In this document: positions 14,403-39,868 of the stretch, in pieces
Layout: every line of letters begins with the position of its first letter
How positions within the stretch are numbered: position 1 is the stretch's first letter
Assembly: GCA_003612405.1 (NCBI GenBank)
Contig: RAYR01000002.1
Span: 1 to 64,000 of the forward strand
Length of the DNA: 64,000 nucleotides
From: a bacterium 0.1xD8-71
Lineage (GTDB): Bacteria > Bacillota > Clostridia > Lachnospirales > Lachnospiraceae
Reading direction: 5' to 3'
Position numbers and translations under genes: made by a program
Notes under the pieces: model-generated
What the model saw: only the letters and a program-made list of their open reading frames with translations
Database searches by the model: none
Told to the model about the DNA's origin: nothing

Positions 14403-14720
14403 TTATATCATCTGAAAATACTTTAAGGCATCCTCTATTGCCTTTTCTTTCTCTAAAGGTACTTTTGGCACTCTCGCCTTTCCCTCTCCCGTATTATAGT
14501 TAATTCTTTCTATTATACCATGTTTTCTTTTGACCTTTGTGATATAAAGTTGTGATACTTTCAAACTATATTTCTCTAACACATATTGTTTTATCTCCGC
14601 ATAAGTAGCCTTACTCTCTGCTTTTGTCAAATCCATTTCGTCAAGGTCTATTTCTACTTTGATATGCTGTGTTGATTTTAGTTTGGACAATAATACGCAT
14701 GTCTCCACATGTGTCGTCAC
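14403..14720 (-). pseudogene. Detached 3' end of rlmD with an extra C-terminal domain
   Basis: The frame reads HVETCVLLSKLK, the conserved end of the RlmD/TrmA catalytic domain, then about 90 residues including KATYAEIKQYVLEKYSLKV and EKAIEDALKYFQMI, a domain that follows this methyltransferase end in many Clostridia with mobile elements at this site. The part up to 14711 is the left host flank; codons 14712-14720 come from the inserted element. Joining 38,460-39,868 to 14,403-14,703 gives 1,710 nt, a 570-codon uninterrupted frame including stop. So this is the displaced tail of the rlmD gene 23.8 kb away. No ribosome site of note. Confidence 0.85.
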
Positions 14721-14835
14721 CGCCTAATGAACACGTTTCGTCCACCACATCACTCTCACATGAACACAAACTTAATTCTGTGTCCACTTCCACAATTACA
14801 GTCTTATCAACAACTTCTGCCAGCCTGCTCTCCAT
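14641..14835 (-). CDS. Small ORF crossing attL (N-terminal half of the attP-spanning ORF)
   Basis: 64 residues: MESRLAEVVDKTVIVEVDTE, then two short Cys-rich stretches, then 20 residues read from host DNA. The start overlaps the recombinase end region, 1 nt after its TAA, with GAGGGTG upstream. Only codons up to about 14704 belong to the element. In the circular form the frame continues across attP into the right end and ends after 94 codons. Function unknown; proximity to the recombinase suggests a role in its regulation, which is a guess. Confidence 0.5.
   Translation of the reverse strand: MESRLAEVVDKTVIVEVDTELSLCSCESDVVDETCSLGGDDTCGDMRIIVQTKINTAYQSRNRP
14704..14711. other. attL core of the element
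   Basis: TCCACATG, identical to 38460-38467. On the coding strand of rlmD it reads CATGTGGA, encoding the HVE of the conserved HVET motif. Left flank is the rlmD tail; right flank is element DNA next to the recombinase gene. Confidence 0.85.
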
Positions 14836-14836
14836 C

Positions 14837-16539
14837 TTATGACACCCTCTTTTCTTCATTTGACTTCTTTGCCTTTTCCTTAAACTGCTCCTTAGCATGT
14901 GGCACTGTTCCTGTTTGATTACCTTTTAACACAAAGGTCAGTTTGTAAGGATCGGGTGTCCCGTCTTCCTCATATCCTCCGACAATTACCCTGTCAATGA
15001 TACTCTCAAAAACCACCCTGTCAAATTCATCAAGGACTTGTTCTTTTTCAAGTGTGTCACGGAGTTCTGACATCCGCCTGTTTATATCTTTCTGTGTGCA
15101 GATACTGTCCTCAAGAAGTGCTTTCCTCTCGGACAGTTTATGAAGCTTTCTGGTGAAATCCACCATTTTTTCCTCGTACACCTCTTTGGATATTGTACCA
15201 TCAATCAACATATCTGTCATCCGCGATTTTTTTGATTCCAATGAAGAAATATCCTTATCAATCTGCTGTTTTTTACGCATATTTTCATCACTGTCAGCCG
15301 ATTCCGCCACATATGACAATACCACATCCAGCACATCATCAAAATTACCTGCCAGCAGTCCAAAGGCATCCAGAAAAGCTCCCTCTAAAATTGCTTCATC
15401 GACTGCTTTACAGTTCGGACAGTTGGCAATGCCATTCTTAGTGGCATTCATACACTGCCACACCGGTTTTTCATAATCAGACCTGCTGTGTCTTGTCCTG
15501 CGTGTGAGCTTATGTCCGCAATAGGCACATTCGCACATACTGCTGAAGGAATACTGACGTGTATAACGTTCCCTGTTTCCGGTTGTTTCAACTACTTTAT
15601 TTCTGGAACGCTTCATGCGTATTTCCTCTGCTTTATCCCATATTTCTCTTGAGACAATCGGCTCATGATGATCTCTGAGATAATACTGGTTTTCTTCTCC
15701 CATATTTGCAAGCCTGCGTTTGGAAATTGGATCGGTAGTAAATGTCTTTCCCAGAAGAATATCCCCTTTGTACTTTTCATTCTTAATCATCCCCATAACA
15801 CCATGCGTATGCCAGCTTACTTCTCCTTTTTTATTCTTAATTCCAAGTTCCATTAACCGTTTTGCAATCGTGGTCGTTCCATAACCCTCCAGATACATAT
15901 CATAAATCATACGGACAATCTCCGCTTCTTCCTCATTGACAGTTATGCTCTTGCCCTCGGTATGATAATCATATCCATAACAGCCATTGAAACCGATCAA
16001 TTCGCCGCGCTTCATTTTCATCTGTAATCCCATCTTGACATTCTGTGAAAGCGACTCTACTTCCTGCTGTGCCAATGAACTCATAATAGTCAATAACAGC
16101 TCGCCGTTCATATCAAGTGTATTGATATTTTCCTTCTCGAAAATATGGCAATATTCCGGTCGCGGAGCATTCTCACATAATTCAGCGTATCTACCGTATT
16201 GCGGGCAAACCGTGAAATAGACTTTGTAAGTATCATATCTATTTCTCCATTGTAGCAATGGGCAATCATATCCTGAAACCCACTCCGCTTATCCGTCTTT
16301 GTTCCTGTGACCGCTTCATCCGCAAATATTCCTGCATTTACCCAATCTTTATTTGATGCTATCTTTTGTTCATAATACAGTTTCTGTGATTCAAAGCTCC
16401 CCAACTGCTCATCATCATCGGTAGATACACGGCAGTATGCCGCCACCCTGATACGGTCAACCCTCAAAGCTCCCGTACTGCCCCTGTTCCTGCCATTCGG
16501 AACAATTTTTGTCTTTTGCAATACCTGCACTTCGCTCAT
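14837..16539 (-). pseudogene. Large serine recombinase (site-specific integrase), one frameshift
   Basis: Corrected length is 567 residues. The N-terminal frame (from 16539) has the resolvase catalytic start RIRVAAYCRVSTDDDEQLGS and KSISRFARNTVD, then leaves frame after DRNIAIF. The second frame resumes at FEKENINTLDMNGELLLTIM and runs through the recombinase domain, a zinc ribbon (CAYCGHKLTRR ... CPNC) and a coiled coil to 14837. The break is at 16140-16143, where four T (coding strand) stand in place of an expected five. One base restores the whole frame. It is the integrase of this element. If real, the shift would lock the element in place. Confidence 0.88.
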
Positions 16540-16693
16540 ACAATTCCTCCAATCTTTTCAATAATCTGCATATTGATTTCTGTCAGTCCTATATGGAAAA
16601 TGACAGTTGCAAAGGATTTTTCTTTTTGAAACATCCTCTGTATGCTGCCATCATATACTCAAACTTAAATATTAACGAATGTACCGAAAAATT

Positions 16694-16843
16694 TTATGCT
16701 GCATCATCAGTATTTTCCACAATCAAAAATCTGTCCTTTAATTTCCCCTTTGTATATCGAAACTCTGCTTCTGTAATACTCCCTTTGCGGTAAATTTTAC
16801 AAAGAATTGCTATACACTTTGCATACTCCATTTCCCTTGTCAT
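16694..16843 (-). CDS. Small protein upstream of the recombinase (49 aa)
   Basis: Translated by hand: MTREMEYAKCIAILCKIYRK, then GSITEAEFRYTKGKLKDRF, ending ENTDDAA. AGGAGG lies 6 nt before the ATG. The pattern of a short helix pair, with G-x-I-x-x-x-E-F/Y in the middle, is the SHOCT-like protein commonly found just before such recombinases. It is in the same direction, about 150 nt upstream of the recombinase start. The intervening 150 nt may hold a further 32-codon frame that I do not call. Confidence 0.65.
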   Translation of the reverse strand: MTREMEYAKCIAILCKIYRKGSITEAEFRYTKGKLKDRFLIVENTDDAA

Positions 16844-16883
16844 CCGACTCCTCCTCATTCTAATATTTTCACTATCGACTTCT

Positions 16884-17198: not shown

Positions 17199-17363
17199 GA
17201 TTTATCCACAACATGATATAATTCTTTTGTAACCGCCTTGTCTGCCTGATGGCTTTAAGCGGCTTCGTTTTCATGGATTTATGATACCAATACAGAGAGT
17301 AGAAAAACATTGACGGAGACTTGACCATACATTGACATAAAAATTTTTAAGGGAGAAAATGAT

Positions 17364-19664
17364 TTGAGAAACCGACTTACCTTTGCCAATATAATAAGCA
17401 TACTTCTTGAGAATAAAAAGAAAACCTATCAGCAACATCAGCTTGTCCGCAGCTTATTTTCCGCATACCTGAACGATGAACTTTCAAGCGATGAAATATA
17501 TGCAGAAGATAACACCATGTACAGCCGCTGGTGTACCGGAGCAAGACCGATACCTATGGAAATCCTGCGCATTTATGAGGATAATAATTTTGAGGTCATG
17601 GAAGAAGATTTCCGGTGCAAAATCATTCCGAACCTGATAAATGAATCACAGGCACATTCCCAAATGGAAGAACTGATCAATGACAGCCGCAATATCATCG
17701 GCAACAAAACCGCAGATGAAATGCTTGCACTTACTGATAATGCAGCATTTTTTACTGCCGTAGTCCGTTATGCTATTCTGTCAGACCACAAACACAGCGG
17801 CTTATTTTCACCTGATTTATCCGATACCATACAAAACAGCCGCCTGCCCTCCATTACGGAAGAATTTGTAGGACGTAAAAATGAACTGAAAGAATGCGGG
17901 AAACTTTTGCAGGAACACCCCACACTTTTTATCAGCGGCGTGGCAGGGATCGGGAAAAGTGAATTTGCAAAATATTTTGCGGAAAAAAACCGTAAGAAAT
18001 ATACAAATATCATTTACCTCTATTATGCAGGAGATTTAAAGAAAAGCATTGCAGGCATGGAATTTGACGATGATACCAGTGAAATGACTGAAGAGACGCT
18101 TTTTGACAGACACTATAAGACATTGAAAAAGCTGCACCATGACAGCCTTATTATTCTTGATAATTTTAATGTACTCCCAAAGGATGACAGCTTTTTCAGG
18201 GAATTTGCACAGAATGATTTTCAGCTATTGATAACCACCAGATGCCGTCCTACGCAGTACCCCATTATGGAATTAAAAGAGCTGGATGCAGATACCGAAC
18301 TGCCGGAACTGTTTTACCGTCTGTGCCCTTCCGCAACAGAAAATACACTGGCAACAAAGCAGATCATAAAAACCGTACACAGCCATACGCTGACTGTTGT
18401 GTTATCTGCGTTATCCTTATCCGCAAGCGGTATGGAAGCGGAAGAACTGCTATATGAATTACAGACCTGCGGACTGAGTATTGCTTCCGGTGAAGCTGTT
18501 GAATTATATAAGGATGGAGATTACACTGACGGACTGATGGCAGAGCATTTAAGGAAACTGTTACAGCTTGGGAAACTGTCTGATCCCTGTCTTGATGTCC
18601 TGCGTAACCTTTCCCTGCTTTCTGCCTCCGGCGTATTAAAAAATGCTTTTAAGAACTGGATGAAACTGCCATCATTAAATGATGTGAATTATCTTGCCAA
18701 ATACGGCTTTATCCATGATGACAAAGAAAACCGGAAAATCAGTCTGCACCCACTGATAAGAGAGATTGTTGCACTGGAAACTTTACCGTCCGTATCAAAC
18801 TGCCATACACTGCTTGACAGTCTGCATTGCATCTGCCTTGTGCATGGACTGGAAGTTAAAAGACCACAGAATATGATCGATTCGCTTATCAGCATTACAG
18901 AAAATATTTTAGCAGACATACCAGAGGATTATCTGCTGTTCCTTCAGGATATGTTCCCATACCTTGAAAAATATCTTGTGACGGACTATCTGCCAAAACT
19001 TGTAGAACGGATAGAGTATGTAATGAAACAGAATACGCATTCCTACTGCGATAGAGCGTTGCTTCTTGACTATAAGGCAGAACTGTTTCTTACCAAAAAC
19101 GATTATAAAAACGCCTTGAAGAAACGGTTAAAAGCTGTCAGTGTCTTAGAACCGTACCATACGGAGGATGCAGACCAGCGGACAGCAAATCTGCTCTCAA
19201 ACCTGTACAACAATCTTTCTAATACATACCTGCTGATGAAAAAGACGAAAGAGGCTGCTGAAATGCTCCATACTGCTTTAACCATCCGGCAGGAATATAC
19301 ACACCTCGGACTGGCAGAATCACATGATATGCTGCAACAGTTGCTGAACCTTACCAATATGCTGATCCTCTCCAAAAATACAGATACGGCAAAACAGGTT
19401 CTTTCCACCTATGAGAATCTTGTTTTGGAACATGAAGGAACGCAAACTTTAGATAATGGTGTCTGCCAGATGATGTATGGTGCGATTGCGCTTTCCGAGG
19501 GCAATGCTAAAGAAGCTGAACTTCATCTTTTATCTGCGGAGAATATTATTTCGGAAGTCATGGGAACCGATAACGATTATGCTAAAACTGTTTATTTGTA
19601 CCTGAACAACCTGTATTCCCGATGGCAGAAACCGGAACAGGCTTTGGCGTATAAAAATAAATAG
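17364..19664 (+). CDS. STAND-type NTPase with TPR-like C-terminus (candidate defence gene)
   Basis: 766 residues. Starts at a TTG with GGGAG 8 nt upstream; the nearby ATG at 17359 stops at once. The N-terminal 165 residues are an unrecognised domain. The NTPase has Walker A GVAGIGKS at 192-199, Walker B LIILDNF at 262-268, and the NB-ARC-type sensor LLITTRCRP near 288. A winged-helix-like segment (NYLAKYGFIHDD ... ISLHPLIREIV) and about 250 residues of TPR-like helices follow (LSNLYNNLSNTYLLMKKTKE). STAND proteins sense a partner and oligomerise; several protect against phages. No effector domain is recognised. It stands alone, next to the defence island. Confidence 0.8.
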   Translation: MRNRLTFANIISILLENKKKTYQQHQLVRSLFSAYLNDELSSDEIYAEDNTMYSRWCTGARPIPMEILRIYEDNNFEVMEEDFRCKIIPNLINESQAHSQMEELINDSRNIIGNKTADEMLALTDNAAFFTAVVRYAILSDHKHSGLFSPDLSDTIQNSRLPSITEEFVGRKNELKECGKLLQEHPTLFISGVAGIGKSEFAKYFAEKNRKKYTNIIYLYYAGDLKKSIAGMEFDDDTSEMTEETLFDRHYKTLKKLHHDSLIILDNFNVLPKDDSFFREFAQNDFQLLITTRCRPTQYPIMELKELDADTELPELFYRLCPSATENTLATKQIIKTVHSHTLTVVLSALSLSASGMEAEELLYELQTCGLSIASGEAVELYKDGDYTDGLMAEHLRKLLQLGKLSDPCLDVLRNLSLLSASGVLKNAFKNWMKLPSLNDVNYLAKYGFIHDDKENRKISLHPLIREIVALETLPSVSNCHTLLDSLHCICLVHGLEVKRPQNMIDSLISITENILADIPEDYLLFLQDMFPYLEKYLVTDYLPKLVERIEYVMKQNTHSYCDRALLLDYKAELFLTKNDYKNALKKRLKAVSVLEPYHTEDADQRTANLLSNLYNNLSNTYLLMKKTKEAAEMLHTALTIRQEYTHLGLAESHDMLQQLLNLTNMLILSKNTDTAKQVLSTYENLVLEHEGTQTLDNGVCQMMYGAIALSEGNAKEAELHLLSAENIISEVMGTDNDYAKTVYLYLNNLYSRWQKPEQALAYKNK

Positions 19665-19812
19665 AAAGTTAGCAAAAGTTAAAAAGGAGGCTACTAAATC
19701 TCCAAAATTACAGAAAGCAATGTCAAGAACCACAAAATATCAGGTTTTTGACATTGCTTCTACTGTTACAGACTGCAAATTTGTTATTTCGTGAAAGTTA
19801 GCGAAAGTTAAA
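19664..19812. repeat. 20-bp direct repeats flanking a hairpin
   Basis: GAAAGTTAGCAAAAGTTAAA at 19664-19683 and a copy with one mismatch (G for A at position 11) at 19793-19812. Between them a 17-bp stem (19715-19731 with 19743-19759, one G-T pair, 11-nt loop) is built on AAGCAATGTCAA/TTGACATTGCTT. The left copy begins at the last base of the STAND stop codon and the right copy overlaps the end of the AlbA_2 gene. The hairpin could terminate both convergent genes although no T run follows. Confidence 0.7.
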
Positions 19813-21205
19813 CAGAATAAAATTTTTGATTTTTGCTACGCGGCTTATCAGGTATTGTCATTGCAATTTTCCCTTCATCCAATAATGGATTCAGGTAATC
19901 GCTTCTGAATGTGGTTCTGTGTTTTATACCAAGAAACTTCATCATTTCATCTCTGTCTCTTGGTTCTTTGCAATATTCAAGCAGCGCATTGATCCTTTCT
20001 TCCTTTTGAGCGGTTTTTTGAGCGGTCGTTTCTTCTTTTTGAGCGGTTTTTTGAGCGGTACCGCTCAATTTTTGAGTACCATACCGATAAAACACAACAA
20101 CAAAACCATCATCCGGTGTTTCAAATTCCACCCTGCATCCTGCTTTATCACAAGCATCCTTAATACGTTTTAATCCTGTTGCAAAGCTTTCCATATCTTT
20201 AGAATAATATAATGTACGGGCAATTAGAGGATTTCTTCGAATTGGTCGTTGATTTCCCACCACATAACTCTCCGGTGTTTTATTTGCTGGAAAAGCGCCG
20301 GGATTATAGATTTCAATTCTATTTTTAAAAATAGTAATTTCATTGCTCTGTCCACTATCGAACATTCTATGTCCAAAAGAATTTGTAATTGCCTCCCTGA
20401 TCGCATCCAAGGGAATTTCTGGTATTTCCTTCCTCGTCAAATTTCCAAACTCGACGCGCCAATCCATAGCATCAATAATATACTGTTCCGCTTTTTTCTT
20501 TAATTCCATAACAGAACCGCTGTACCTTCGTATGTCGGTAAATGTCAAACGTTCATCAGATGCAAATTTCGCAATCTGCAATTCATTGACAATACCACAA
20601 TCACAAAAAAGAGCAGCACCTGCATTTAAAAGATAGTTTCCCTCTATCAACTCCAATTTATCCAAAACAGTTTTTACATCCGTCTCCTCAAAATCAATTC
20701 GCCCAGCATCTTTTGCTTTTCTCAGATACTCCGCAAAAGCATCTTCATTTACATCGTCAATTGTATACTTAGATACTCTCTTCTCCCATGAATAGTCAAC
20801 ATTATCACGCTTACGTATCATAGAATCATAAGCATCCTGATCCATAACAAGATCTTCGTCCGCTACTCTTATCCTTGGAACATTGTAGGCAAGATACGGG
20901 CATCTACTGCCTTCAAAGCGTACCAGAATAGTCTCTCTGTCACCAAATTGTTGTATCTTTATTTCCGGATAAATAGCAGGCTTAATATGATTTCCGATTG
21001 CCTGACTTACTTTCCGCAGAGATTCATCATTAATTTCCTGCCCGATTACTGTCCCATCATTTTTCACACCAAAATACAATTCACCCTTCTGGTGCTTGTT
21101 CAAAATAGCAGCAATAGAAAACATCGCTTCCTTTAGCTCGCCAATACTCTTTTTATATTCAATTTGCTCGGTTTCAGAACCAATATTTACTAATGCCACT
21201 ATCAT
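19808..21205 (-). CDS. AlbA_2 (Schlafen-like) DNA/RNA-binding protein with ATPase-like C-terminal part
   Basis: About 465 residues. The N-terminus SETEQIEYKKSIGELKEAMF, then HQKGELYFGVKNDGTVIG, is the AlbA_2 domain (glycine-rich E-x-K ... G-G-x-L-x-x-G-V). The middle has a HATPase_c_4-like segment (ITNSFGHRMFDSGQSNEITI, IEIYNPGAFP, IARTLYY). Near residue 395 a repeated TAQKTAQKEE linker is followed by a winged-helix-like C-terminus (DEMMKFLGIKHRTTFRS). Proteins of this type act as regulators and occur in phage-defence islands. Convergent to the STAND gene. The start is an ATG at 21205; a GTG just before or 6 nt after it is possible. Confidence 0.8.
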   Translation of the reverse strand: MIVALVNIGSETEQIEYKKSIGELKEAMFSIAAILNKHQKGELYFGVKNDGTVIGQEINDESLRKVSQAIGNHIKPAIYPEIKIQQFGDRETILVRFEGSRCPYLAYNVPRIRVADEDLVMDQDAYDSMIRKRDNVDYSWEKRVSKYTIDDVNEDAFAEYLRKAKDAGRIDFEETDVKTVLDKLELIEGNYLLNAGAALFCDCGIVNELQIAKFASDERLTFTDIRRYSGSVMELKKKAEQYIIDAMDWRVEFGNLTRKEIPEIPLDAIREAITNSFGHRMFDSGQSNEITIFKNRIEIYNPGAFPANKTPESYVVGNQRPIRRNPLIARTLYYSKDMESFATGLKRIKDACDKAGCRVEFETPDDGFVVVFYRYGTQKLSGTAQKTAQKEETTAQKTAQKEERINALLEYCKEPRDRDEMMKFLGIKHRTTFRSDYLNPLLDEGKIAMTIPDKPRSKNQKFYSV

Positions 21206-21307
21206 CACCCTTTATCCATTGATATTTGATATTGTACCTAATTTATCTGCGAATATCAATGGAATTCTGCTCCTTGACATCGATATTCTTCTTGCAAAAC
21301 AGTCATT

Positions 21308-21817
21308 TTAAACCATTCTGCATTTTTTACATTCTGATACACCACCCAAGTGCCCAAAAAATCCATTGATTTTAGTTGGTACTAAATCACAAATCACCAT
21401 ATCATTTCTTTCATGCCATGTATATCCGTTTTCTTTTCGCCACTGTTTTACATCCTTTGAAGTCCAGCTACTTTTTCCTTCATACTTTTCCCTACTCCAT
21501 TTCTCTGCACATTTTACATCACACTTCCAGAAGTTTTCTCTCCTAATTTCGTTCATATTTTCTATACTAACTGTTACTTTTGCACATACACTAAAATCCG
21601 GTATTCCTTCTTTATATAATATGCCGTCTAATTCAAATACATGTAAAATAGCATTTACGCTTTTGTCTGCAGGTATATACCAAGACTCTCCTCTGTCACC
21701 TGTCCACATTCCTCTAATAGCATTTTCTTTAGGAGTCCTTTTAATTCTTTCCTCAAGTGTACTGTTGTACTTTCCGTTAAATCCTCTATTACGTTCCTTT
21801 GTTTCTTTGCTCTTCAT
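21308..21817 (-). CDS. HNH/ENDO VII-superfamily nuclease (WHH-type)
   Basis: 169 residues from the ATG at 21817, with GGAAAGGA 8 nt before it; the frame is open further upstream but without a good site. The C-terminal motif GYTWHERNDMVICDLVP with INGFFGHLGGV matches the WHH pattern (W-H-[HE] ... LVP ... H-x-GG) of HNH/ENDO VII-type toxin nucleases. Upstream, NGKYNSTLEERIKRTP and WTGDRGESWYIP look like the linker common before such domains. No secretion domain is attached and no immunity gene is recognised beside it, so it may act inside the cell, for example as a defence or recombination nuclease. Confidence 0.6.
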   Translation of the reverse strand: MKSKETKERNRGFNGKYNSTLEERIKRTPKENAIRGMWTGDRGESWYIPADKSVNAILHVFELDGILYKEGIPDFSVCAKVTVSIENMNEIRRENFWKCDVKCAEKWSREKYEGKSSWTSKDVKQWRKENGYTWHERNDMVICDLVPTKINGFFGHLGGVSECKKCRMV

Positions 21818-21859
21818 TGCAGTGTCCTTTCCGTCCGAGCGGTACGGAGAGACACAAAA

Positions 21860-21889
21860 GAGCCTGCGGTTGAAGATGACCACAGGCTC
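21860..21889 (-). terminator. Stem-loop upstream of the nuclease gene
   Basis: GAGCCTGYGGT / ACCRCAGGCTC pair in an 11-bp stem with one mismatch and an 8-nt loop. On the minus strand it is followed by TTTTGTG, so it may end transcription coming from the small gene at 22091-22231. It may also control the nuclease gene that starts 43 nt further on. Confidence 0.55.
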
Positions 21890-22090
21890 CGATAGCCGAA
21901 AAATGGCGCACGAAACTACGGTGGGAGCATCTTCGTTCCAAACACAGCCGTCATCGCTGCATTCCGAACTCTTATGCATCCCTCCGTCCTTATAGCGCTA
22001 TTCGGACTAAGAGATTTGATTTAGAAAATTCCCCCGAAGGAGATGGGTAGGCTGATTGGTTAATCTGTCACCGCCCATCGAATGGTGACC

Positions 22091-22231: not shown

Positions 22232-22486
22232 TCCGCTCACCTCCTCAATCGTTGGTACTTTTGATTATAATCAGAACGATAGAGGCAAAAAACGAATGGA
22301 AAAAGAACATCACCAGAAAATTTTCGGAATGAAAAATCCTGGATTTCTGCGTAACGCAGAAGTCCCAGAAACGCTGATGATATGCGATACTACCCTCCAG
22401 ATAATTCAATTACGATAAGAGATACGACGAACGTCTGATTCGGCTTTGAAAAATCAAATGTGAACACGAAAAATTTCAATTTTATA

Positions 22487-28950: not shown

Positions 28951-31551
28951 ATGGCATTCTTATACGAAAAAATAGATGCTCTGCGTGAATACGGCAGCAG
29001 TGCTGTTCTCCCGTCCTATATCCCGGAGAATCTCAATCCGAGTTTTGAGCTGCGTCCGTATCAGAAGCAGGCATTTGAAAATTTTATAACACATTTTGAG
29101 AGCAGCAGTCGCCCGAAACCTACGCAGGTGCTTTTCCACATGGCGACAGGAAGTGGCAAGACGCTTATTATGGCAGGACTGATACTTTATCTCTACAAGC
29201 AGGGATATCGAAATTTTCTGTTCTTTGTCAATCTTTCAAACATCGTTGAAAAGACGAGGGAGAATTTCCGCAATCCGGCATCCACAAAGTATCTCTTTGC
29301 GGATGAGATTGTTTTGGACGGAGAACGCATCCGCATCAACCAGGTTGATAATTTTCAGTACGCAGATGAAGACACTATCAATATCTGCTTCGCTACCACA
29401 CAGGGACTCCACATGGATATGTGGATGACAAAAGAAAACGGGATATCCTTTGACGATTTTGACGAGCAGAAGGTTGTGCTTATCTCCGATGAGGCACACC
29501 ATCTGAATGTTGATACAAAGAAGAAAATGTCTGCTGACGAGGAATCAAGCTATCATTCCTGGGAACAAACGGTAAAAAACATCTTTAGCCGAAATGCAGA
29601 TAACATTCTGCTGGAGTTTACAGCCACCTGCGACCTCGCCAATCCGGCAATCCGCGCCACATACGAGAATAAAATTATTTTCGACTATGCTCTGGCAAAG
29701 TTTTATGGTGACAGATATTCCAAGGATATCATCACGCTCCGTTCTGACCTTACAATAATGGAGCGCGCCTTACAGGCACTTGTGCTTAGTCAGTACCGAC
29801 TTAAGGTTTTTCAAGATCACCGTCTTAGTATAAAGCCTGTTGTACTTTTCAAAGCTGCAAAAATTGCTGACAGCAAAGACTTCATGTTCGACTTTATAGA
29901 GACTGTAAAGAACCTCACAGGAACACAGCTACGCAACCTCTCAAATGCCGTTAATAACGAAGTCATACATACAGCTTTTGCTTACTTTGCCAATAACGGG
30001 ATTTCATTTGATACTCTCGCGGCAGAACTCCGTGACGATTTTTCAGAAGAACATTGCGTCTCTGTAAATGATGATAAAGATGCGACACAGAAGCAGCTTC
30101 TCCTCAATTCGCTGGAGGATGCAGATAATCCATACCGTGCGATTTTTGAGGTAAAGAAACTTGATGAAGGCTGGGACGTCTTGAATCTGTTTGATATTGT
30201 CCGTTTGTATGAGACAAGACAGTCTGGCAGTAAAAAACTGTCACCCACAACGATTGCGGAGGCACAGCTGATTGGGCGTGGTGCAAGATATTGCCCGTTC
30301 AAAATTGACGATGAACAGTCGAAATTCCAGAGAAAGTACGATGAAGATGTAAAAAACGAACTGCGTGTCTGCGAGACGCTTTATTATCACTGCCAGAATG
30401 ACCATCGCTATGTGACGGAGCTACGTAACGCCCTTCGTGAAATTGGTCTGGATACCGATAAAATTGTGCAACGTGAATATATTCTTAAAGATGATTTCAA
30501 AACTACAGACATATACACACACGGTTTAATTTTCCTAAATACCAGAGTCGTGAAAGACAGGAGGGACGTCCATGGACTTTCTCCGACAGTCCGTGATGAT
30601 ATATACCGTTTTCAAGCCGCCACGGGAGCATCGGGCGTTGACTCGGTCATGGTGGAAAACGGACAAGGTGCAGACACCTCTTTTGATTTGAATACGGCGC
30701 ACATGACAATTAAGGAAATCGCAGCAATCAACTATGCTATTGTGAACAAAGCATTGATGAAATATCCGATTTTCAAATTCAATACCCTGCATTCCTATTT
30801 CCCAAATGTCACATCCACACGGCAATTTATAACCGATAATGAGTATCTCGGTGCTGTCCGTATCGACATTCAGAGCAGGGATGAACATCCGACTATGGAT
30901 ACGCTCTATGCTGCAGTATTCTATGTGCTTGGCAAGATTGCAGGTTCTATTTCCAGCATCGAAGAAACCTATAGAGGCACAAAGGAGTTTAGAGCAAGGA
31001 ATATCAGAGATGTGTTCCGCAATAAGACAGTCAATTACACCAATCCACATGACGGTGGAATTGGCATCTCACAAAACGATCCATCCGTAAAGAGCGATTG
31101 GAAAATTGACCTCTCTACGGAAGATTGGTTTGTATATACAGATAACTACGGGACTTCGGAAGAGAAAGCCTTTGTTGCTTATTTCCGTGGGTATATTACG
31201 GATCTGCGGAAAATCTATAATTGCATCTACCTTGTCCGAAACGAGCGTGAATTCCACATTTACTCGTTTGAGGATGGCGAACGTTTCGAGCCGGACTATG
31301 TTCTTTTCTTGCAAAGGAATAAAACGGACGGCTTTGAACAACTCCAGATTTTCATTGAGCCGAAAGGTACACAGCTTCTCGAAAAGGACGCATGGAAAGA
31401 AAAATTCCTGCTTCAGCTTAAGACCGAAGCTGTACCGGCTACCATCTTTGTGGATGACAACGATTATAAGATTTGGGGACTTCACTTCTTCAATCAGGAT
31501 AACCGCATGAAAGAATTCGATGCGGAAATTGCAGCTTTGATTGGTACATAA
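28951..31551 (+). CDS. res: Type III restriction enzyme subunit (Res), SF2 helicase-nuclease
   Basis: 866 residues. Walker A MATGSGKT at 64-71, DEAHH box in LISDEAHHLNVD near 183, and the helicase C-terminal motif QLIGRGARYCPF near 445. The C-terminus holds the PD-(D/E)xK-type nuclease site: EPDYVLF, then IFIEPKG near residue 810. With the preceding Mod this forms a type III restriction-modification system that cuts unmodified DNA after ATP-driven diffusion between two sites. Starts 3 nt after mod, with GGAGGG upstream. Complete. Confidence 0.93.
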   Translation: MAFLYEKIDALREYGSSAVLPSYIPENLNPSFELRPYQKQAFENFITHFESSSRPKPTQVLFHMATGSGKTLIMAGLILYLYKQGYRNFLFFVNLSNIVEKTRENFRNPASTKYLFADEIVLDGERIRINQVDNFQYADEDTINICFATTQGLHMDMWMTKENGISFDDFDEQKVVLISDEAHHLNVDTKKKMSADEESSYHSWEQTVKNIFSRNADNILLEFTATCDLANPAIRATYENKIIFDYALAKFYGDRYSKDIITLRSDLTIMERALQALVLSQYRLKVFQDHRLSIKPVVLFKAAKIADSKDFMFDFIETVKNLTGTQLRNLSNAVNNEVIHTAFAYFANNGISFDTLAAELRDDFSEEHCVSVNDDKDATQKQLLLNSLEDADNPYRAIFEVKKLDEGWDVLNLFDIVRLYETRQSGSKKLSPTTIAEAQLIGRGARYCPFKIDDEQSKFQRKYDEDVKNELRVCETLYYHCQNDHRYVTELRNALREIGLDTDKIVQREYILKDDFKTTDIYTHGLIFLNTRVVKDRRDVHGLSPTVRDDIYRFQAATGASGVDSVMVENGQGADTSFDLNTAHMTIKEIAAINYAIVNKALMKYPIFKFNTLHSYFPNVTSTRQFITDNEYLGAVRIDIQSRDEHPTMDTLYAAVFYVLGKIAGSISSIEETYRGTKEFRARNIRDVFRNKTVNYTNPHDGGIGISQNDPSVKSDWKIDLSTEDWFVYTDNYGTSEEKAFVAYFRGYITDLRKIYNCIYLVRNEREFHIYSFEDGERFEPDYVLFLQRNKTDGFEQLQIFIEPKGTQLLEKDAWKEKFLLQLKTEAVPATIFVDDNDYKIWGLHFFNQDNRMKEFDAEIAALIGT

Positions 31552-31590: not shown

Positions 31591-32480
31591 ATGCCACACG
31601 GAAAGAATATTAACCTTTTTTTAATGGATGGCGACGCAAATGCACTCTTGCCAATTGGACTGGAGTAGCGTATAAAATCCCACGAACGGAGTTGGACAAA
31701 TGCAAAGAACGAGATGACTTGAAACAAAGTGGAGTATATTTCCTTTTCGGAACCTCAGATCAGACTGGAGATCCTGTTGTATATATTGGGCAGGCTGGCG
31801 CACGAAAAAATGGTGAAGGTATTCTCAACCGCCTCCAAAAGCATAAGCGAAATCCTGACAAAGACTACTGGACAGAGGCTGTCGTATTTACGACTTCAAA
31901 CAACTCCTTTGGTCCTACAGAAATCAGTTATCTTGAAAATCGCTTCTGTAATCTTGCTCTTGCCGCCAAGCGATACGAGGTAAAAAACGGAAATGATTCA
32001 ACATCCGGTAATATTACAGAAGAAAAAGAAAGTGAACTGGAAGAATTTATCGATTACGCAAAACTGATTATGGGGACACTTGGACATAAGATTTTCATAC
32101 CTTTTACAAAATCCGAACCTGCCGGCGCAGATAATCCAAAAGACTTTGCTTCAGTTATACCAGATATCGAGTTTTTCCTTTCTCGTACCATAAAACAGTA
32201 TAATATCTCTGTTAATACGCAAGCGAAGCAAACAGCGGAAGGATTCGTTGTCCTCGCCGGAAGCATTATATCACCAGAAGATGACAATACAATTCAACCT
32301 GGCGTAAAGGAAAAGAGAAAAAACGCCAGTATAAATGATTGTCATATTTTGCAGGAAGATGTACTTTTCAGTAGCCCCTCCAGCGCAGCAATGTTTGTCA
32401 TTGGCAAAAGTGCAAATGGTTGGACATCCTGGAAAACAAAATACGGAAAAACTCTGCATGACTTGGAGGACAAGGAATAG
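31591..32480 (+). pseudogene. GIY-YIG nuclease with DUF4357, frameshifted near the N-terminus
   Basis: The ATG at 31591 (AAAGGAG 8 nt upstream) opens MPHGKNINLFLMDGDANA, then hits a stop after 25 codons. Another frame picks up at RKCTLANWTGVAYKIPRT and runs on through the GIY-YIG core (SGVYFLFG, VVYIGQAG) to a C-terminal DUF4357-like segment (LFSSPSSAAMFVIGKSANGW) ending at 32480. The sequence GACGCAAATG occurs once at the break; two tandem copies would give an exact in-frame 300-codon gene reading MDGDANGRKCTLANW. So a 10-bp copy was probably lost. Last gene of the defence operon, 39 nt after res. An internal TTG at 31692 could still start the nuclease domain. Confidence 0.8.
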
Positions 32481-32961: not shown

Positions 32962-34329
32962 TCACCGTTCCTTATCTCTCTTCTTTTTCTTAATATTCTC
33001 CTTCACTCCAAAATGCTTTTTCCGATACTCATACTCTTTCAGAAACTCATCATAGACCTTCATCTTGTATTTCATACTTTTCATTTTACTTTCATCATAC
33101 CCCATTCGCTTTTGATACTCTTTTAATTCTGCCATTTGATCACTTGTCGGCGGCGGAAGCAACTTTGCACGTTCTTCTAATGAAAGCTTTGAAAAATCTG
33201 CTTTTTCCTCTTTGGTTGCTTCTGATTTATGCTCTAAAACAGCTTCGTTTTTCCCCTGCCATTGTTCATTGAACTCCTGAAAAACACTTCCATAAAAGAT
33301 TTCTTCATCATTTTCAGATACATCATAATCTGCCTGAAAGTGGTCAAATGCTTCGTAAAATGAATCCCCATCTTTTTCCGCCTCCTCCCGCCAGTCCTCA
33401 TAATCATCAAGATACTGCTTTGCTTCCTCAATATCCTGTATAGTACGCCTGTATTCCACCTGCTTCTGCTCTTTTTCCTGCATATACTGTCTGATCCCTG
33501 CCACTGTAAATCGGCTTCCAAGTTTACTTCCTCTGACCGCCTGCGCTTTTCCTGTTTCACCCGCATGGTATGGAAGCGCATAACTAATGGTATTCCCTTT
33601 TAATCGTATATCCATGAGATATATTTTCTTTAACATCTCCACCACATCCGCAAGAGTTCTTGTTTCAGTGCTGTTCATTGCCAGTCTTACATAAGTCTTA
33701 ATCTCTTCCCTGAAAGACAACTTATCATATTTCTGCATCTGACATTCCGCAAAACTTTTCCGTTCCTGTGTCCGTTCCTCATTATAGAATGTATCCCTAA
33801 CCGAATGTGTCAATCCCCGTTTCTTGCACTGTTCCCCGAAAAACTGCGACAGCTCTTTCAATTCCGCCATTCCCCTGCGGAAAGATTTACCATCCTTCAG
33901 ATTACAGTTGCTCACAATGAAATGCACATGGATATGCTCTGTGTCCGTATGCACCGCCCACATTGCTTCATATCCCTTGCTCCAAAAGAATTTATGCACA
34001 AATTCCCTTGCTATCTTATCTGCTTCCTCATAGGTCAGCTTATCGTTATCATCCGGATGAAAAGAAATCGACATCTTATGTGCCAGAATATCTTTCTGCT
34101 TGTAACGAGAATATTTTTTATCGTGCATTTTCCTTGTTATCAGCAGGCTGTTAGCAAAATTATCCCTGTTACATCCAAACGCTCCGTACAAATCCGGTCT
34201 TGTCTTCCGGATTCCTTCTTTTATCTGTTCTTTTTTCGTTCCAAGAATATAATCTGCCGCACTTTTTAACTGTGCGACAGATTTGCAGTAACTGTAATTC
34301 ACATTAACATTTCCATAAACCTCTGCCAT
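32962..34329 (-). CDS. MobP-family relaxase (mobilization endonuclease)
   Basis: 455 residues from the ATG at 34329, with GGGGGAT upstream; the frame is open further up inside mobC. The relaxase domain has the three-histidine metal site in HTDTEHIHVHFIVSN, preceded by ISFHPDDNDKLTYEEAD and a start tyrosine region NVNYSYCKS. The C-terminal 200 residues are charged and helical and unlike known primase or helicase domains. It should nick at oriT with MobC and lead transfer of the element using a helper's conjugation pore. Ends at the edge of the terminator region. Intact. Confidence 0.9.
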   Translation of the reverse strand: MAEVYGNVNVNYSYCKSVAQLKSAADYILGTKKEQIKEGIRKTRPDLYGAFGCNRDNFANSLLITRKMHDKKYSRYKQKDILAHKMSISFHPDDNDKLTYEEADKIAREFVHKFFWSKGYEAMWAVHTDTEHIHVHFIVSNCNLKDGKSFRRGMAELKELSQFFGEQCKKRGLTHSVRDTFYNEERTQERKSFAECQMQKYDKLSFREEIKTYVRLAMNSTETRTLADVVEMLKKIYLMDIRLKGNTISYALPYHAGETGKAQAVRGSKLGSRFTVAGIRQYMQEKEQKQVEYRRTIQDIEEAKQYLDDYEDWREEAEKDGDSFYEAFDHFQADYDVSENDEEIFYGSVFQEFNEQWQGKNEAVLEHKSEATKEEKADFSKLSLEERAKLLPPPTSDQMAELKEYQKRMGYDESKMKSMKYKMKVYDEFLKEYEYRKKHFGVKENIKKKKRDKER

Positions 34330-34355
34330 AGACCATATCCCCCCTTTATTCCCGA

Positions 34356-34709
34356 TCAGGCTATTTTCTCCCATATGCGAAGCAGTCTGTTTTCAATTTG
34401 TTTATATCTGTATTCCGTATATTCAAGCGGCTGCTTCATATCCATACCGCCATAGGTATTGATTATCTTTGCTATCTGGTTGATATTGACTCCCTGTTTT
34501 TTTAGTTCCGCCGAAAGCTCTGACAATAAATTGCGCACGTCCTTTAACGTAACGCCATCCATCTGCTTTCCCTCATTTATCCGTAACAGATAATCTACAA
34601 AGTCTGCATTGCTGCCATATCCGCTGGCTTCTTTTTGTTTTTCAAACTCTGCCTGCAACTTATCATCTGTTCGGATATAGATTACTCTGTCCCTTGCCCT
34701 GTTTCCCAT
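34356..34709 (-). CDS. mobC: MobC-like relaxosome accessory protein
   Basis: 117 residues. N-terminal ribbon-helix-helix-like part (RDRVIYIRTDDKLQAEFEKQ), then the MobC signature region with LSAELKKQGVNINQIAKIIN. These proteins bind near nic and open the strands for the relaxase. Its end overlaps the longest relaxase frame; the relaxase proper starts 26 nt after the stop. Upstream is a 570-nt non-coding stretch that should contain oriT. Confidence 0.88.
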   Translation of the reverse strand: MGNRARDRVIYIRTDDKLQAEFEKQKEASGYGSNADFVDYLLRINEGKQMDGVTLKDVRNLLSELSAELKKQGVNINQIAKIINTYGGMDMKQPLEYTEYRYKQIENRLLRIWEKIA

Positions 34710-35756: not shown

Positions 35757-36698
35757 CTAGCTGCACTTTTTGTTGTGGCGCAAAATCATGTAACAGTAAT
35801 ATTCATATCCCTTTGCAGTCGCACAGATATCGTGATTAAAATGCGTCCTCTCCCGGTTATATTCCCCGACAGCTTCCACGATTCTTGCGCCGCCGCCCAT
35901 AAAGTGAAGCTGCATAAGGCTTTCATTATATTCATAATCCTTCAGCTTCTGAAAAATCTCCTGTACATAGGAAACTGCTGCTTCTTTCATGAGTGAGACA
36001 TAGGGCTCTACAATATCCGTTTCCCCTGTTCTCAGATAATTTTCAATGACCTCGTTCATCAGGTTTGTTCCCGTTTCGTCCAGCACCTTATTATGAATAC
36101 GCTTCATACACTGGAAAACACCGAGTTTCTCTGTCCATGATTTACTCTCCATCGCCTTGCCATTGTTTAAATACATGATATTCATTGTTCCGTTGCCAAT
36201 ATCGGCAAGTAAATTCATTCCTTTAAAATCTTTCAGGTTTTCCGCCACCGCAGAATAGCATTGCGGCATGACTGTGCATCCGGCAATCTCGACCTCATAC
36301 TGTCTGCCTTTATAGCGAAACTGCACAATCTTATTCTGCATCAAATATTGGCGGAAAGATTCTCTCTGCGCCTGCACCCACTTCAACGGAAGTCCTGATG
36401 CAAGATGTACTCTGGCAGAGGTTAAGTTCCTTGCATTCAGTTCTTTTGCTATTGCTGCAAGCGTTAGGATATAATTATCATCATCTGACTGCTTTTCAGC
36501 GATAAAGCTCTTATGACCTTCCCCGATAATGTAGAAATATCCGTCATACTCCAGATAATCCTTACTGAAAGTTGGCGCTTTCTCACTCTTAATCAGCGCT
36601 GTTGGAAATACCCTGTGTGTTGTTTTGATATTCCCATATCCATGATCAATTCCTAAAATCAATGTTCCATTCATGTTATATTCTCTTATATTCGCCAT
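35757..36698 (-). CDS. parM: ParM/StbA-like actin-type partition ATPase
   Basis: 313 residues. Actin/Hsp70 fold: phosphate-1 loop ILGIDHGYGNIKTT, the second loop LLADIGNGTMNIMYL, and the adenosine motif LHFMGGGARIVE. The family (ALP_N type) polymerises to push plasmid copies apart. With the ParR-like gene downstream and ParB upstream, it suggests that the element has or had a circular, replicating phase. GAGGG lies before the ATG; M8 is a possible later start. Confidence 0.87.
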   Translation of the reverse strand: MANIREYNMNGTLILGIDHGYGNIKTTHRVFPTALIKSEKAPTFSKDYLEYDGYFYIIGEGHKSFIAEKQSDDDNYILTLAAIAKELNARNLTSARVHLASGLPLKWVQAQRESFRQYLMQNKIVQFRYKGRQYEVEIAGCTVMPQCYSAVAENLKDFKGMNLLADIGNGTMNIMYLNNGKAMESKSWTEKLGVFQCMKRIHNKVLDETGTNLMNEVIENYLRTGETDIVEPYVSLMKEAAVSYVQEIFQKLKDYEYNESLMQLHFMGGGARIVEAVGEYNRERTHFNHDICATAKGYEYYCYMILRHNKKCS

Positions 36699-36725: not shown

Positions 36726-37127
36726 TTAATGATAGCAGTAGACAATATCATGAAGAACCACTTCCTCTGCCGTTGCTTTAGCCTGTTCCCGAAGCTGCCA
36801 CATTTCCATTGTAGAGTCCGGATTCCCCGGTTTATGTTTCTGTAAATACTGCTGCATAATCCTGTCCAACAGTTCGTTAGCTTCCTCATTTACTTCCGCT
36901 GCCTTTTGCTTCAACTGCCCTGTACAAACTAAATCATAATATCTCTCCGGCTGGTTTTCTTTCAGATACTTTTTCCATAAATCTCCGTATTTTCCTAAAA
37001 AAACATTTTGCATTGTTTCTGTTTCTTCTTCGCCAATAAAGATATTAGGATATAAAATACCGTCTTTCTCTGTGTAAGTGCCGCCCATCTGTTCAAATAT
37101 TGATAATTCTTCTTTCTTCCTACCCAT
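36726..37127 (-). CDS. tnpV: TnpV-family transposon-encoded protein
   Basis: 133 residues from the ATG at 37127 with GGAGG 8 nt upstream. LSIFEQMGGTYTEKDGILYP is the TnpV N-terminal signature. The rest is helical (KKYLKENQPERYYDLVCTGQ ... LLDRIMQQYL). TnpV proteins occur in Tn4451-type and other clostridial elements with serine recombinases; the function is not firmly known. It lies between parB and parM in the same direction. Confidence 0.82.
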   Translation of the reverse strand: MGRKKEELSIFEQMGGTYTEKDGILYPNIFIGEEETETMQNVFLGKYGDLWKKYLKENQPERYYDLVCTGQLKQKAAEVNEEANELLDRIMQQYLQKHKPGNPDSTMEMWQLREQAKATAEEVVLHDIVYCYH

Positions 37128-37152
37128 AACTTTATCCTCCACTCTTCTATTT

Positions 37153-38109
37153 CTATCGTGATTTTTCCGATCTTTTAGCTGAAAGGTTATGAATACCTGT
37201 TTGTTTTTCATGCCAATCCCTGACCAATTTTTCTATCAGTTCCACTTTCTGCTTTGGTGTAAAATCTGTGGGGAAATACTGCGACAACGAATCCGCCCTA
37301 ATCTTAATCTGTTCCCTCTGATTTGCTTTTTCCTCTCCCAAAATATCATACATTTTATCCATATCAATCCCCTCTGACTGACTCAGGCGTTTCATCCTGT
37401 TTGCCTGTGAAAGAGACGGCGTACACTGCTCCAAATCCATTACCGCATGAAGCTCATACTGCTCCTCTTCCTTCAGATAAGAAAGTTCCACCGCTATAGT
37501 AAACGCTATTTTCCCTTCATCCACCATATCAAGAATCTTGGGAATAAGATTTGTCAGACGGATATACCTTGCAATCTGGTTCCGGCTCTCCCCAACCTGT
37601 TTTGCTAAAAGCTCATCCGAACGAAGTACGGGCTTTCCGGTTTCTCCCACATTCTTTAACAGCTTCGTCCCAACTTGAGACATAGGTTCAGTAATTTTCT
37701 TTCCCTGCTGCTTCATGGCTTCCAGCTTCATTTTATAGGCATAAGCTTTCTCACTAGGCTTGATATGCTCGCGCTGTAAATTACTATCCACCATCGTTAT
37801 CGTTGCTTCTGCATCATCCATCTGCACAATCATCACAGGAACCGTGTCTATACCTGCCCATTCGCTGGCTGCTTTTCTTCTGTGCCCTGCAACGATTTCA
37901 TACCCTGATCCAATTGGGTTTGGTCTTACAATCAAGGGAACAAGTACGCCCTTCTCCTCAATACTCTTCGATAATTCAAAGAGCTGCATATCATGCTCTA
38001 CCTTGAACGGATGCCCCTGAAAATCATGCAGTTCGCTGATCTTTACATTTTCTGTCTGTACATTGTGGCCGAAAATCCCACATATACTCTTTTTGCCAGT
38101 CTGCTCCAT
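37153..38109 (-). CDS. parB: ParB/Spo0J-family partition protein
   Basis: 318 residues. The ParB/Srx domain shows DFQGHPFKVEHD, EKGVLVPLIVRPNP and EIVAGHRRKAASEWAG (the GxRR CTP-binding motif). The central HTH is near RSDELLAKQVGESRNQIARY. Lacks a ParA partner in this window, so it may use ParM or act as a regulator. First gene of the right arm, reading inward; promoter in 38110-38300. Confidence 0.92.
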   Translation of the reverse strand: MEQTGKKSICGIFGHNVQTENVKISELHDFQGHPFKVEHDMQLFELSKSIEEKGVLVPLIVRPNPIGSGYEIVAGHRRKAASEWAGIDTVPVMIVQMDDAEATITMVDSNLQREHIKPSEKAYAYKMKLEAMKQQGKKITEPMSQVGTKLLKNVGETGKPVLRSDELLAKQVGESRNQIARYIRLTNLIPKILDMVDEGKIAFTIAVELSYLKEEEQYELHAVMDLEQCTPSLSQANRMKRLSQSEGIDMDKMYDILGEEKANQREQIKIRADSLSQYFPTDFTPKQKVELIEKLVRDWHEKQTGIHNLSAKRSEKSR

Positions 38110-38179: not shown

Positions 38180-38228
38180 AAAGACCGCCTGCTCCATACC
38201 ACAAAAATATAGAAAACAAGCGGTCTTT
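38180..38228 (-). repeat. Inverted repeat upstream of parB
   Basis: AAAGACCGC (38180-38188) and GCGGTCTTT (38220-38228), 31 nt apart. It lies between parB and the small right-end ORF. It could be a terminator for that ORF on the minus strand or a ParB/regulator site. Confidence 0.55.
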
Positions 38229-38306
38229 CGACTTACCTATTATTCAGTTGTTGATAAGATTTTTCTGTAATGATTGAGTTTGTGAACGATACATTTTTGT
38301 GTCCAC

Positions 38307-38453
38307 TCATACGAGTTCCATAACTACGGACACTTTAATCTCGTGAGAAATCTCTTTTTTCTTTCCGATTTCAGGTGTTCGGTTAAACTTAAAAATCCTC
38401 GCAAAGTGCGTAAACTCAAGGACTTCTACGAATCCTTCCTTTGTAGACAACAT
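38307..38453 (-). CDS. Small ORF at the right end (C-terminal part of the attP-spanning ORF)
   Basis: 48 residues: MLSTKEGFVEVLEFTHFARI, then FKFNRTPEIGKKKEISHEIK, ending VVMELV. GGAA lies 4 nt before the ATG. The start is inside the last codons of the current rlmD. In the circular form it is fused in frame, through two codons, to the 44 element residues that lie before attL (MESRLAEVV...). It reads as real protein. No family recognised. Confidence 0.5.
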   Translation of the reverse strand: MLSTKEGFVEVLEFTHFARIFKFNRTPEIGKKKEISHEIKVSVVMELV

Positions 38454-39868
38454 GCGACTTCCACATGCACCGTTCCCCCAAACTGATCCACTCCGCGCAC
38501 CTTCTTAAGCTCATACCCGCCTTCACACAAAACCTTCAAATCTCTTGCCAGCGTGGCGGAATCACAACTCACATAGACAATCCGCTCCGGCCGCATCCTA
38601 AGCATGGTCTCCAGACACTTCTCATCACAGCCTTTACGGGGCGGATCCACCACAATCACATCCGGATGAAGCTTATCAGCGTTTTCATCCTCCCCTGCCT
38701 GACCTAATCTCTCATAGAAAGCAGGCAATACCTCCTCTGCCTTCCCCTCATAAAATTCCACATTTGCTATCTGATTAACCCGCGCATTTTCCCTGGCGTC
38801 TTCTATGGCCTGGGGTACGACCTCCACCCCGTAGACCTGCCTGGCCTTCTTTGCCATGCAAAGAGAGATGGTACCAATACCACAGTATAGATCCCACACG
38901 GTCTCTTTGCCTGTCAGATTGGCATATTCCAGTGCCAGTCCATACAACTTCTCAGTCTGTACGGGATTCACCTGATAGAAGGAAAGAGGAGATATGGAAA
39001 AGGTAAGGCCGCAGAGGGTATCCTGAATACATCCCTTCCCCCAGAGAACGCAGATATCTTTTCCCATGATTACATTTGTTTTTTCCGTATTGACACTGAG
39101 TGAAATGCTGGTTATTTTTTTATTCGCTCCACTTTCTGCTGTGTCTGTAAGAGGAATTGCCAGAAGATTCTTTGTCAGCTTTTCTGCCGCCGGCAGTTTC
39201 GTCCCGTTCACCACAAGGCACACCATAATTTCACCGGACCAGAAGCCCGTGCGAATCAGCACATGCCGCACCAGCCCCTCTCCTGTATCCTCCCGATAAG
39301 CTGTCACATGATTATCCCGCATATAAGAGAGCACAGCTTCTAAAATCAGCTGATTCTCCGGGGCCCCCAGTGCACAGTCGGTATTGGCTATGATATCATG
39401 GGTTCTGCCTGCATAGAAACCGGTAATCAGATTGCCTTCTTTGTCATACCCTACTGGAAACTGTGCCTTGTTGCGATAATGCCATGGTTCTTCCATTCCC
39501 ACAACGGGCTCTATAACCGTATCAATAAGCGCTGCCGGGAAGCCGCCGATACGCAGAAGGTTGTTTCTTATCTTATCCTGTTTGAAGACAAGCTGTCTGT
39601 CATAGCGCATGGCCTGAATCTGGCAGCCGCCGCATCTTTTGTGAAAGGAACATTTAGGCTCCACACGAAAAGAAGAAGGTGTCACCACCTTCTCTACTCT
39701 TGCATATCCGTAATTTTTCTTACATTTGGTGATTCTTGCTTCCACCACATCCCCGATGACGGCATCTTTCACAAAGAGGGTATATCCGTCCGTCTTACCG
39801 ATTCCCTCTCCGTCATTTCCAATATCTTCTATCGTCACCGTGACAATGTCATTCTTTTTATATTTCAT
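38426..39868 (-). CDS. rlmD: 23S rRNA (uracil-5)-methyltransferase RlmD, 3' end replaced by element
   Basis: 480 residues as it stands, from the ATG at 39868 (GAGGAAATGT upstream). TRAM domain first (KKNDIVTVTIEDIGNDGEGI), then an Fe-S cysteine set (PKCSFHKRCGGCQIQ), the AdoMet motif VWDLYCGIGTISLCMA and the catalytic region VVDPPRKGCDEKCLET. It methylates U1939-type uracil in 23S rRNA. The normal ending VHVETCVLLSK is interrupted: after VHVE the last ten residues (VACCLQRKDS) come from the element. The catalytic core is intact, but the natural C-terminal extension (99 residues, at 14403-14703) is lost. Confidence 0.92.
   Translation of the reverse strand: MKYKKNDIVTVTIEDIGNDGEGIGKTDGYTLFVKDAVIGDVVEARITKCKKNYGYARVEKVVTPSSFRVEPKCSFHKRCGGCQIQAMRYDRQLVFKQDKIRNNLLRIGGFPAALIDTVIEPVVGMEEPWHYRNKAQFPVGYDKEGNLITGFYAGRTHDIIANTDCALGAPENQLILEAVLSYMRDNHVTAYREDTGEGLVRHVLIRTGFWSGEIMVCLVVNGTKLPAAEKLTKNLLAIPLTDTAESGANKKITSISLSVNTEKTNVIMGKDICVLWGKGCIQDTLCGLTFSISPLSFYQVNPVQTEKLYGLALEYANLTGKETVWDLYCGIGTISLCMAKKARQVYGVEVVPQAIEDARENARVNQIANVEFYEGKAEEVLPAFYERLGQAGEDENADKLHPDVIVVDPPRKGCDEKCLETMLRMRPERIVYVSCDSATLARDLKVLCEGGYELKKVRGVDQFGGTVHVEVACCLQRKDS
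38460..38467. other. attR core of the element
   Basis: TCCACATG, identical to the attL core. Right flank is rlmD body; left flank is element DNA with the small right-end ORF. Confidence 0.85.

Follow-up and report, generated by a model that had tools for sequence, protein, structure and literature searches.

In streptococci, integrative and conjugative elements (ICEs) and integrative and mobilizable elements (IMEs) that insert into rumA carry a single serine integrase with the attachment (att) site inside the integrase gene, and the 3' ends of rumA and the integrase gene are exchanged reciprocally; as far as the consulted portions of the published descriptions go, here and in the comparisons below, both proteins are said to shift reading frame in this exchange, and the insertion is described as a disruption of the gene (PMC4701971, PMC5357655). 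One of these papers suggests that the two forms of the streptococcal integrase may differ in function, citing the prophage Mx8 of Myxococcus xanthus, in which attP lies in the integrase gene, integration swaps a 112-residue C-terminus for 13 residues, and the altered integrase is less active (PMC4701971). The same source places CTn5 of Clostridioides difficile, an element with a serine integrase, in rumA of one strain (PMC4701971), and in the integration-dependent immunity of mycobacteriophage BPs attP lies in the repressor gene, so that integration alters the C-terminus and the activity of the repressor (PMC4557955). Here we analyse a stretch of 64,000 nucleotides (the window; contig RAYR01000002.1, genome G000) in which a 23.8-kb element carrying defence genes occupies the 3' part of rlmD (rumA), together with a second class of element, represented at a locus C35 of the same genome, that has its att site within its own recombinase gene.

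Compared with the streptococcal rumA elements (Ambroset et al. 2016), the locus is alike in its rumA/rlmD target, in the single large serine integrase, in the presence of IMEs at the site and, for the C35 class, in the att site within the integrase gene; the window element falls under the rumA-targeting type by its insertion in rumA/rlmD between short repeats. It differs in that the enzyme here receives a new last strand and the recombinase of the window element is unfused, while most recombinase ends are in phase and a conserved domain of about 100 residues is exchanged. Mx8 shares the attP within the integrase gene and the C-terminus replaced on integration, but its integrase is of the tyrosine type and its description names no housekeeping enzyme that gains the exchanged end. 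BPs likewise has attP within the gene of an element protein, whose C-terminus therefore changes on integration, although that protein is a repressor and what it loses is a degradation tag, whereas CTn5 is conjugative and no tail exchange figures in its description. The principle of 3'-end exchange is already published for the streptococcal rumA elements (PMC4701971). Two features are apparently new: a tail domain, conserved and for the most part in phase, that is under purifying selection and occurs on integrase and methyltransferase alike, and a single site that has been reused repeatedly; we found no account of the conserved tail in the literature searched, a weak negative since subscription papers and preprints lay outside its coverage. 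The explanation that we favour as a whole, with a probability of roughly 0.8, combines a defence-carrying mobilizable element in rlmD, a replacement end for the gene, a mobile displaced tail, and serial exchange at the site.

The initial annotation had placed such an element between two copies of an 8-bp repeat, and the repeat, TCCACATG, is indeed located at 14704-14711 and 38460-38467, the two attachment cores on the displaced-tail side and the rlmD side, respectively. On the minus strand it represents the H-V-E codons of RlmD (CATGTGGA). When the minus-strand segments 39868..38460 and 14703..14403 are joined, they give the 1,710 nucleotides of open frame that had been claimed, with zero internal stops, reading ...DQFGGTVHVETCVLLSKLKS...FQMI* with GGTVHVETCVLLSK across the rebuilt join and amounting to 569 residues. 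As sole proof of the ends we rejected the repeat, since it occurs seven times in the window, always on the plus strand, against a mean of 2.64 expected in shuffles. We accept the ends because independent copies in other genomes stop at the same points: homology to a copy in genome G048 stops at 14703 and homology to locus L174 (E. plexicaudatum ASF492) stops at 38467, which upholds the proposed extent of 14704..38467 (~23.8 kb). The attL and attR sequences of G000 and G048 agree with a CA core and the other end families with GA, the core lying somewhere within CATGTGGA.

The body of rlmD, encoding a 23S rRNA m5U methyltransferase, runs on the minus strand from 39868 to the H-V-E codons (38460..39868; TIGR00479 rumA, E 1.2e-132, with support from Pfam and the join), and is followed by an element-borne replacement 3' end (38426..38459, minus strand) that reads VACCLQRKDS after HVE. 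The same end stands after different rlmD bodies in L172, L175 and L193, and in G048 with one change. Judging from these comparisons, a large serine recombinase would have inserted the element at the H-V-E codons, just before the last beta-strand of RlmD, and rlmD stays full length because the right end of the element supplies a replacement strand and a stop. The previous end of rlmD, a tail of 102 residues (14403..14711, minus strand; HVETCVLLSK...KYFQMI; identified by the join, a database search and alignment), is by the same token pushed 23.8 kb away and orphaned. The element thus sits in rlmD as had been proposed, but the gene is not shortened by it and instead receives a new in-frame end with the pattern of a last strand.

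As far as the aligned sequence indicates, a second species has the same element with the same ends but another displaced end. In G048, where we compared the left stretch and the rlmD-side contig, without the middle of the element, window positions 14703-28566 are aligned (13.9 kb readable, in two fetched stretches), beginning at 14703, with 98.3% identity over 14703-18746 and 99.9% over 18747-28566; on the rlmD-side contig, the ParB, TnpV and actin-like proteins are 94%, 88% and 96% identical. Despite this near-identical element, the two RlmD proteins are only 70% identical. Past the shared left end the window reads HVETCVLLSKLKS... whereas G048 reads HVEVIIMMQYCGKEKN, a different displaced end, and on the rlmD side the shared sequence starts at the CATGTGGA codons, the rlmD bodies being different.

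More distant relatives were traced through the ParB-like gene of the element. From 507 related loci 80 were kept and 55 of these examined, 17 of the other 25 being titled Paenibacillus. In 41 of the 55, an rlmD-type 3' end that the element meets at the same codons lies upstream of parB, 37 times by motif, at a distance of 222 to 1,204 nucleotides, and four times by inspection (L179, L180, L183 and L216). In L208 and L211 the end of the ParB-type element is joined instead to a serine recombinase gene that belongs to another element, at the rlmD-like 3' end of that gene, so a displaced rlmD-like end on a recombinase seems to serve as a landing site as well. Among the remaining 12, five have less than 1 kb upstream, two (L249 and L251) look like a different kind of ParB locus judging by their neighbour, one (L174) lies elsewhere, and no rlmD end was seen upstream of parB in L182, L195, L198 and L210, the last searched by motif only. 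At L174, around position 5625, the same element end is found in a place that is not obviously rlmD, possibly a secondary site or a rearrangement. The ends brought by ParB-type elements are short, reading for example VACCLQRKDS, TVACLQRVDM or TIVALHRKDT after HVE.

The displaced tail matches no Pfam or NCBIfam family at E 0.001. Two further copies are present in the genome of the window at C35, one fused to a second RlmD-type enzyme (566 residues), the other in frame with a serine recombinase (656 residues) as its fusion partner; they lie 11.6 kb apart with a relaxase between them. Searched against a database, the recombinase-borne tail gave 102 proteins: 89 have an RlmD domain, 12 have recombinase domains, and the last has a KilA-N match and a C-terminus that matches those of the recombinases. 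For a pairwise comparison we added the two fusions of the window's genome, giving 104 proteins, of which 99 have a tail of at least 90 residues, 13 of these 99 being counted as recombinases. Tails at least 95% identical were found in 589 pairs: 81 join a recombinase to an RlmD, seven join two recombinases, and in the RlmD-RlmD pairs the bodies are less than 60% identical in 243 cases, 60-90% in 236, and at least 90% in 22. A mobile origin of the displaced tail is strongly supported by these sequence relationships. Its occurrence on dissimilar RlmDs and on recombinases can be explained by a second element class that trades 3' ends with rlmD. Elements of this class would have their att site within the 3' part of the recombinase gene that they carry, in phase with rlmD, and integration would then give rlmD the tail of the recombinase and give the recombinase the former end of rlmD.

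An att site inside the integrase gene together with reciprocal 3'-end exchange is seen for the C35 element and its relatives, and not for the window element. Relatives of the C35 recombinase are found in 62 of 397 family genomes, and at 28 of 30 such loci, read by eye, the 3' end of the recombinase gene runs in frame into an RlmD-type strand (VETVVLMSRVEK, VETVVGLQRKDT etc.); these loci are related to each other, so the figure is not a count of independent events. The two exceptions are L139, which has another end, and L135, which has no motif. In G188, G083 and G391, RlmD carries a tail of about 100 residues and a recombinase 14-18 kb away ends 10, 13 or 27 residues past the site, and the recombinases of G188 and G083 hold a displaced end that is short and resembles the canonical RlmD end. 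The simplest reading of this pattern would be that the recombinase of the circular element is long-tailed and the empty rlmD short-ended, and that the two ends are swapped on integration. The C35 locus itself (L078:4121-17437) is a second complete insertion of the rlmD type in G000, with a RepA_N protein, a relaxase and a fused AraC-phosphotransferase protein as cargo.

The least certain step is what the tail does for the element. It could be a helix-turn-helix DNA-binding domain, for which the LacI/PurR type was considered, that serves the recombinase in the circular form, in which case integration into a short-ended rlmD would take it off the recombinase and park it on the methyltransferase. 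It is possible, though less probable than not, that a portable DNA-binding C-terminal domain alternates between integrase and RlmD, a single recombination switching the integrase from long to short and marking the occupied host enzyme, and that the window keeps an orphan copy after the arrival of a later, unrelated element. The integrated C35 recombinase speaks against such a switch, as it still carries the long tail, although this is expected if its rlmD already had one. Four of the 28 recombinase ends retain their full length, and shortening is therefore not an invariable outcome of integration.

To place the locus in its genus, we profiled 60 genomes for rlmD, finding a match at E 1e-60 in 55, and fetched 40 of these 55 loci with their downstream DNA; the site was visible in all 40. 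The commonest end, ..NYREEE..CGCIYG, occurs at 12 of the 40 and is taken as the native end of rlmD. The other 28 loci have other ends, five of them exactly VIIMMQYCGKEKN on different rlmD bodies, and the non-native ends appear to come from several element families. The long tail without a stop is read in L049, L058 and L065, and with a stop in L056. Contiguous genes for RlmD plus tail thus occur in the genus, as had been anticipated, and also elsewhere in the family. In L054 (position 8081, oriented), an orphan second copy of the native-type end (NYREEEIPDCGCIYG) stands about 6 kb downstream of an rlmD with the same end. No native-type end was found further left in the window, and a genome-wide pattern for it gave four matches, none of which then runs into that end. 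According to the favoured explanation, an ancestor of the window would have had its native-type end replaced by the 102-residue tail of a tail-exchanging element that was later lost and whose other end is absent from the window, after which the defence element would have taken the same site, given rlmD its present end, and orphaned the tail. The proposed attB was correct as to the site in rlmD and its ends, whereas the rebuilt 569-residue frame is probably not the pristine gene, since the commonest end in the genus differs and the tail is also found on integrases. Because the displaced tail is itself mobile, the frame more probably represents one stage in a series of exchanges than the ancestral gene.

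The data could also reflect an ordinary restoration of the 3' end, in which a substitute strand keeps a useful gene alive and everything else, including the long tail, is hitchhiking read-through without a role. The strand itself fits this well: 45 distinct rlmD ends were collected by hand, a set that also covers native-type and long-tail starts, and in 40 of them positions 2-5 after HVE are occupied by hydrophobic or small residues (V, I, L, M, F, C, A, T, Y, W); the native-type end and many element ends are short, and solved RlmCD ends right after the strand. Beyond the strand, however, the tail is under constraint. With the strand removed, its ratio of nonsynonymous to synonymous substitution rates (dN/dS) is 0.04-0.19, 13 columns past the strand are invariant among 26 tail sequences, and the tail is modelled confidently as a separate domain, consisting of helices only, on a probably flexible linker. 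The tail thus appears from its sequences to be a conserved domain under purifying selection, and we regard a tail without a role as unlikely, if still the strongest competitor of the favoured explanation. Weak Pfam matches to ribosomal protein L23, given by 12 of 26 members with a best E of 0.012, and a match of the tail profile to eS24 (E 0.079) are probably due to chance, because the domain models as helices only, and a Foldseek comparison with the PDB gave no convincing structural match (best E 3.9).

A conserved domain might instead serve the host enzyme, as an extra nucleic-acid-binding domain on RlmD that alters 23S rRNA methylation and is a benefit offered by the elements. Its predicted tethering by a flexible linker would suit such a role, as would its predominance on RlmD in the database search, although such a count is biased towards the form that sequence collections contain more often. 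Since the tail has been passed among dissimilar RlmDs, is lost when a further element inserts, as in the window, and is lacking from most RlmD loci read in the genus, we consider a host benefit rather improbable. Still less credible is the literal reading of the site as attB, in which this rlmD originally ended in the long tail and short ends arose later through insertion of elements. The tail is indeed widespread, with 67 of 150 genomes in the family and 42 of 293 in the class carrying it (both counts take in the genome of the window), and the contiguous RlmD-tail genes are compatible with it, but the three closest rlmD relatives of the window have other ends, 12 genus loci have one different end in common, near-identical tails are found on highly dissimilar bodies and on recombinases, and the recombinases of G188 and G083 hold what looks like the short, canonical RlmD end. 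A misassembly at the join, conceivable in a 72-contig draft, is already contradicted, since the junction recurs in G048 and in genomes that were assembled separately, L172 and L193 among them.

Returning to the defence element of the favoured explanation, we scored defence genes with PADLOC models and other open reading frames (ORFs) with Pfam and NCBIfam, scanning 18 ORFs of the element. The gene next to attL is a large serine recombinase as annotated, with Resolvase, Recombinase and Zn-ribbon domains, but it is split over two frames: an N-terminal part at 16108..16539 (PF00239) and the remainder at 14837..16258 (PF07508, PF13408), both on the minus strand. The 98% identical copy in G048 is a single frame of 567 residues, and the split at 14837-16539 may be an error, decay or a regulated shift. 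The ORF stops at 14837, 125 nucleotides before the att core, without fusion to the tail, whose frame closes just upstream of the core. At the other end, also on the minus strand, lie the ParB-like protein adjoining the rlmD end (37153..38109; PF02195, PF17762), whose relatives stand beside rlmD ends, TnpV (36726..37211; PF14198), an actin-like protein of the ParM/Alp type (35757..36698; PF17989), a MobC-like accessory protein (34356..34709; PF05713) and a MobA/VirD2-type relaxase (32962..34374; PF03432).

Between these, on the plus strand, is defence cargo. Adjacent genes for HamA (22804..24321; PF08878; PDLC00164, E 2.9e-199) and the HamB helicase (24318..26969; PDLC00190, 1134 bits) constitute a Hachiman system (22804-26969), and adjacent Mod (26935..28947; PF12564, PF01555; PDLC03635) and Res (28951..31551; PF04851; PDLC03651) genes a type III restriction-modification system (26935-31551); both match their PADLOC models strongly, and were compared by model matches alone. 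A DUF4357/RAMA protein of the candidate defence family PDC-S14 follows (31692..32480; Pfam, PADLOC). An NTPase plus TPR protein (17364..19664, plus strand; Pfam, PADLOC) has a weakly HamA-like N-terminus, in that its first ~100 residues weakly match the N-termini of the LmuA and HamA models, possibly a shared sensor or effector head. On the minus strand are an AlbA_2/Schlafen-type protein (19808..21208; PF04326, PF13749) and a Colicin-DNase/WHH nuclease-domain protein (21308..21979; PF12639, PF14414). No Pfam match to a VirB4-type conjugation apparatus was found among the 18 ORFs, smaller ORFs lying outside the scan. With its own integrase at one end, a relaxase, MobC and no VirB4-type match, the element is by its gene make-up a mobilizable element of the IME kind with defence cargo, and the proposal of a serine-recombinase element with such cargo at the rlmD site thereby holds. 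Searches for close DNA copies of the element in plasmid and phage record collections, and for a pattern of its joined ends (attP) in viral contigs, gave no match.

Much of the left flank is probably chromosome, because its genes (a 185-residue ORF, a LysM protein and an MBL-fold protein) follow rlmD in relatives, such as L045, which has a native-type end. Left of the element, a chimeric ORF (12151..13404, minus strand) joins, in frame, a truncated MobP3 relaxase (NF041499 matched over 1-190 of 315), making up the first ~246 residues, to an FMN reductase without its N-terminus; a 97% identical reductase in G038 has the N-terminus. The chimera suggests that mobile DNA was lost from the left flank. 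That its MobP3 part is a remnant of the tail-bringing element is not supported, as the relaxase matches three of 150 family genomes, one of them that of the window, and neither of the remaining two belongs to the tail-bearing genomes.

The 3' end of rlmD/rumA thus emerges as a point of turnover here, the native-type end being retained at under a third of the genus loci. The replacement strand may let elements avoid harm to the host, and one element class exchanges an entire conserved domain, which would alternate between integrase and host enzyme, a concrete and testable case of integration altering the integrase itself. Precise ends are now given for a defence island that is nearly unchanged in two species. 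C-terminal extensions of RlmD in databases should be read with caution, since they may often be products of mobile elements.

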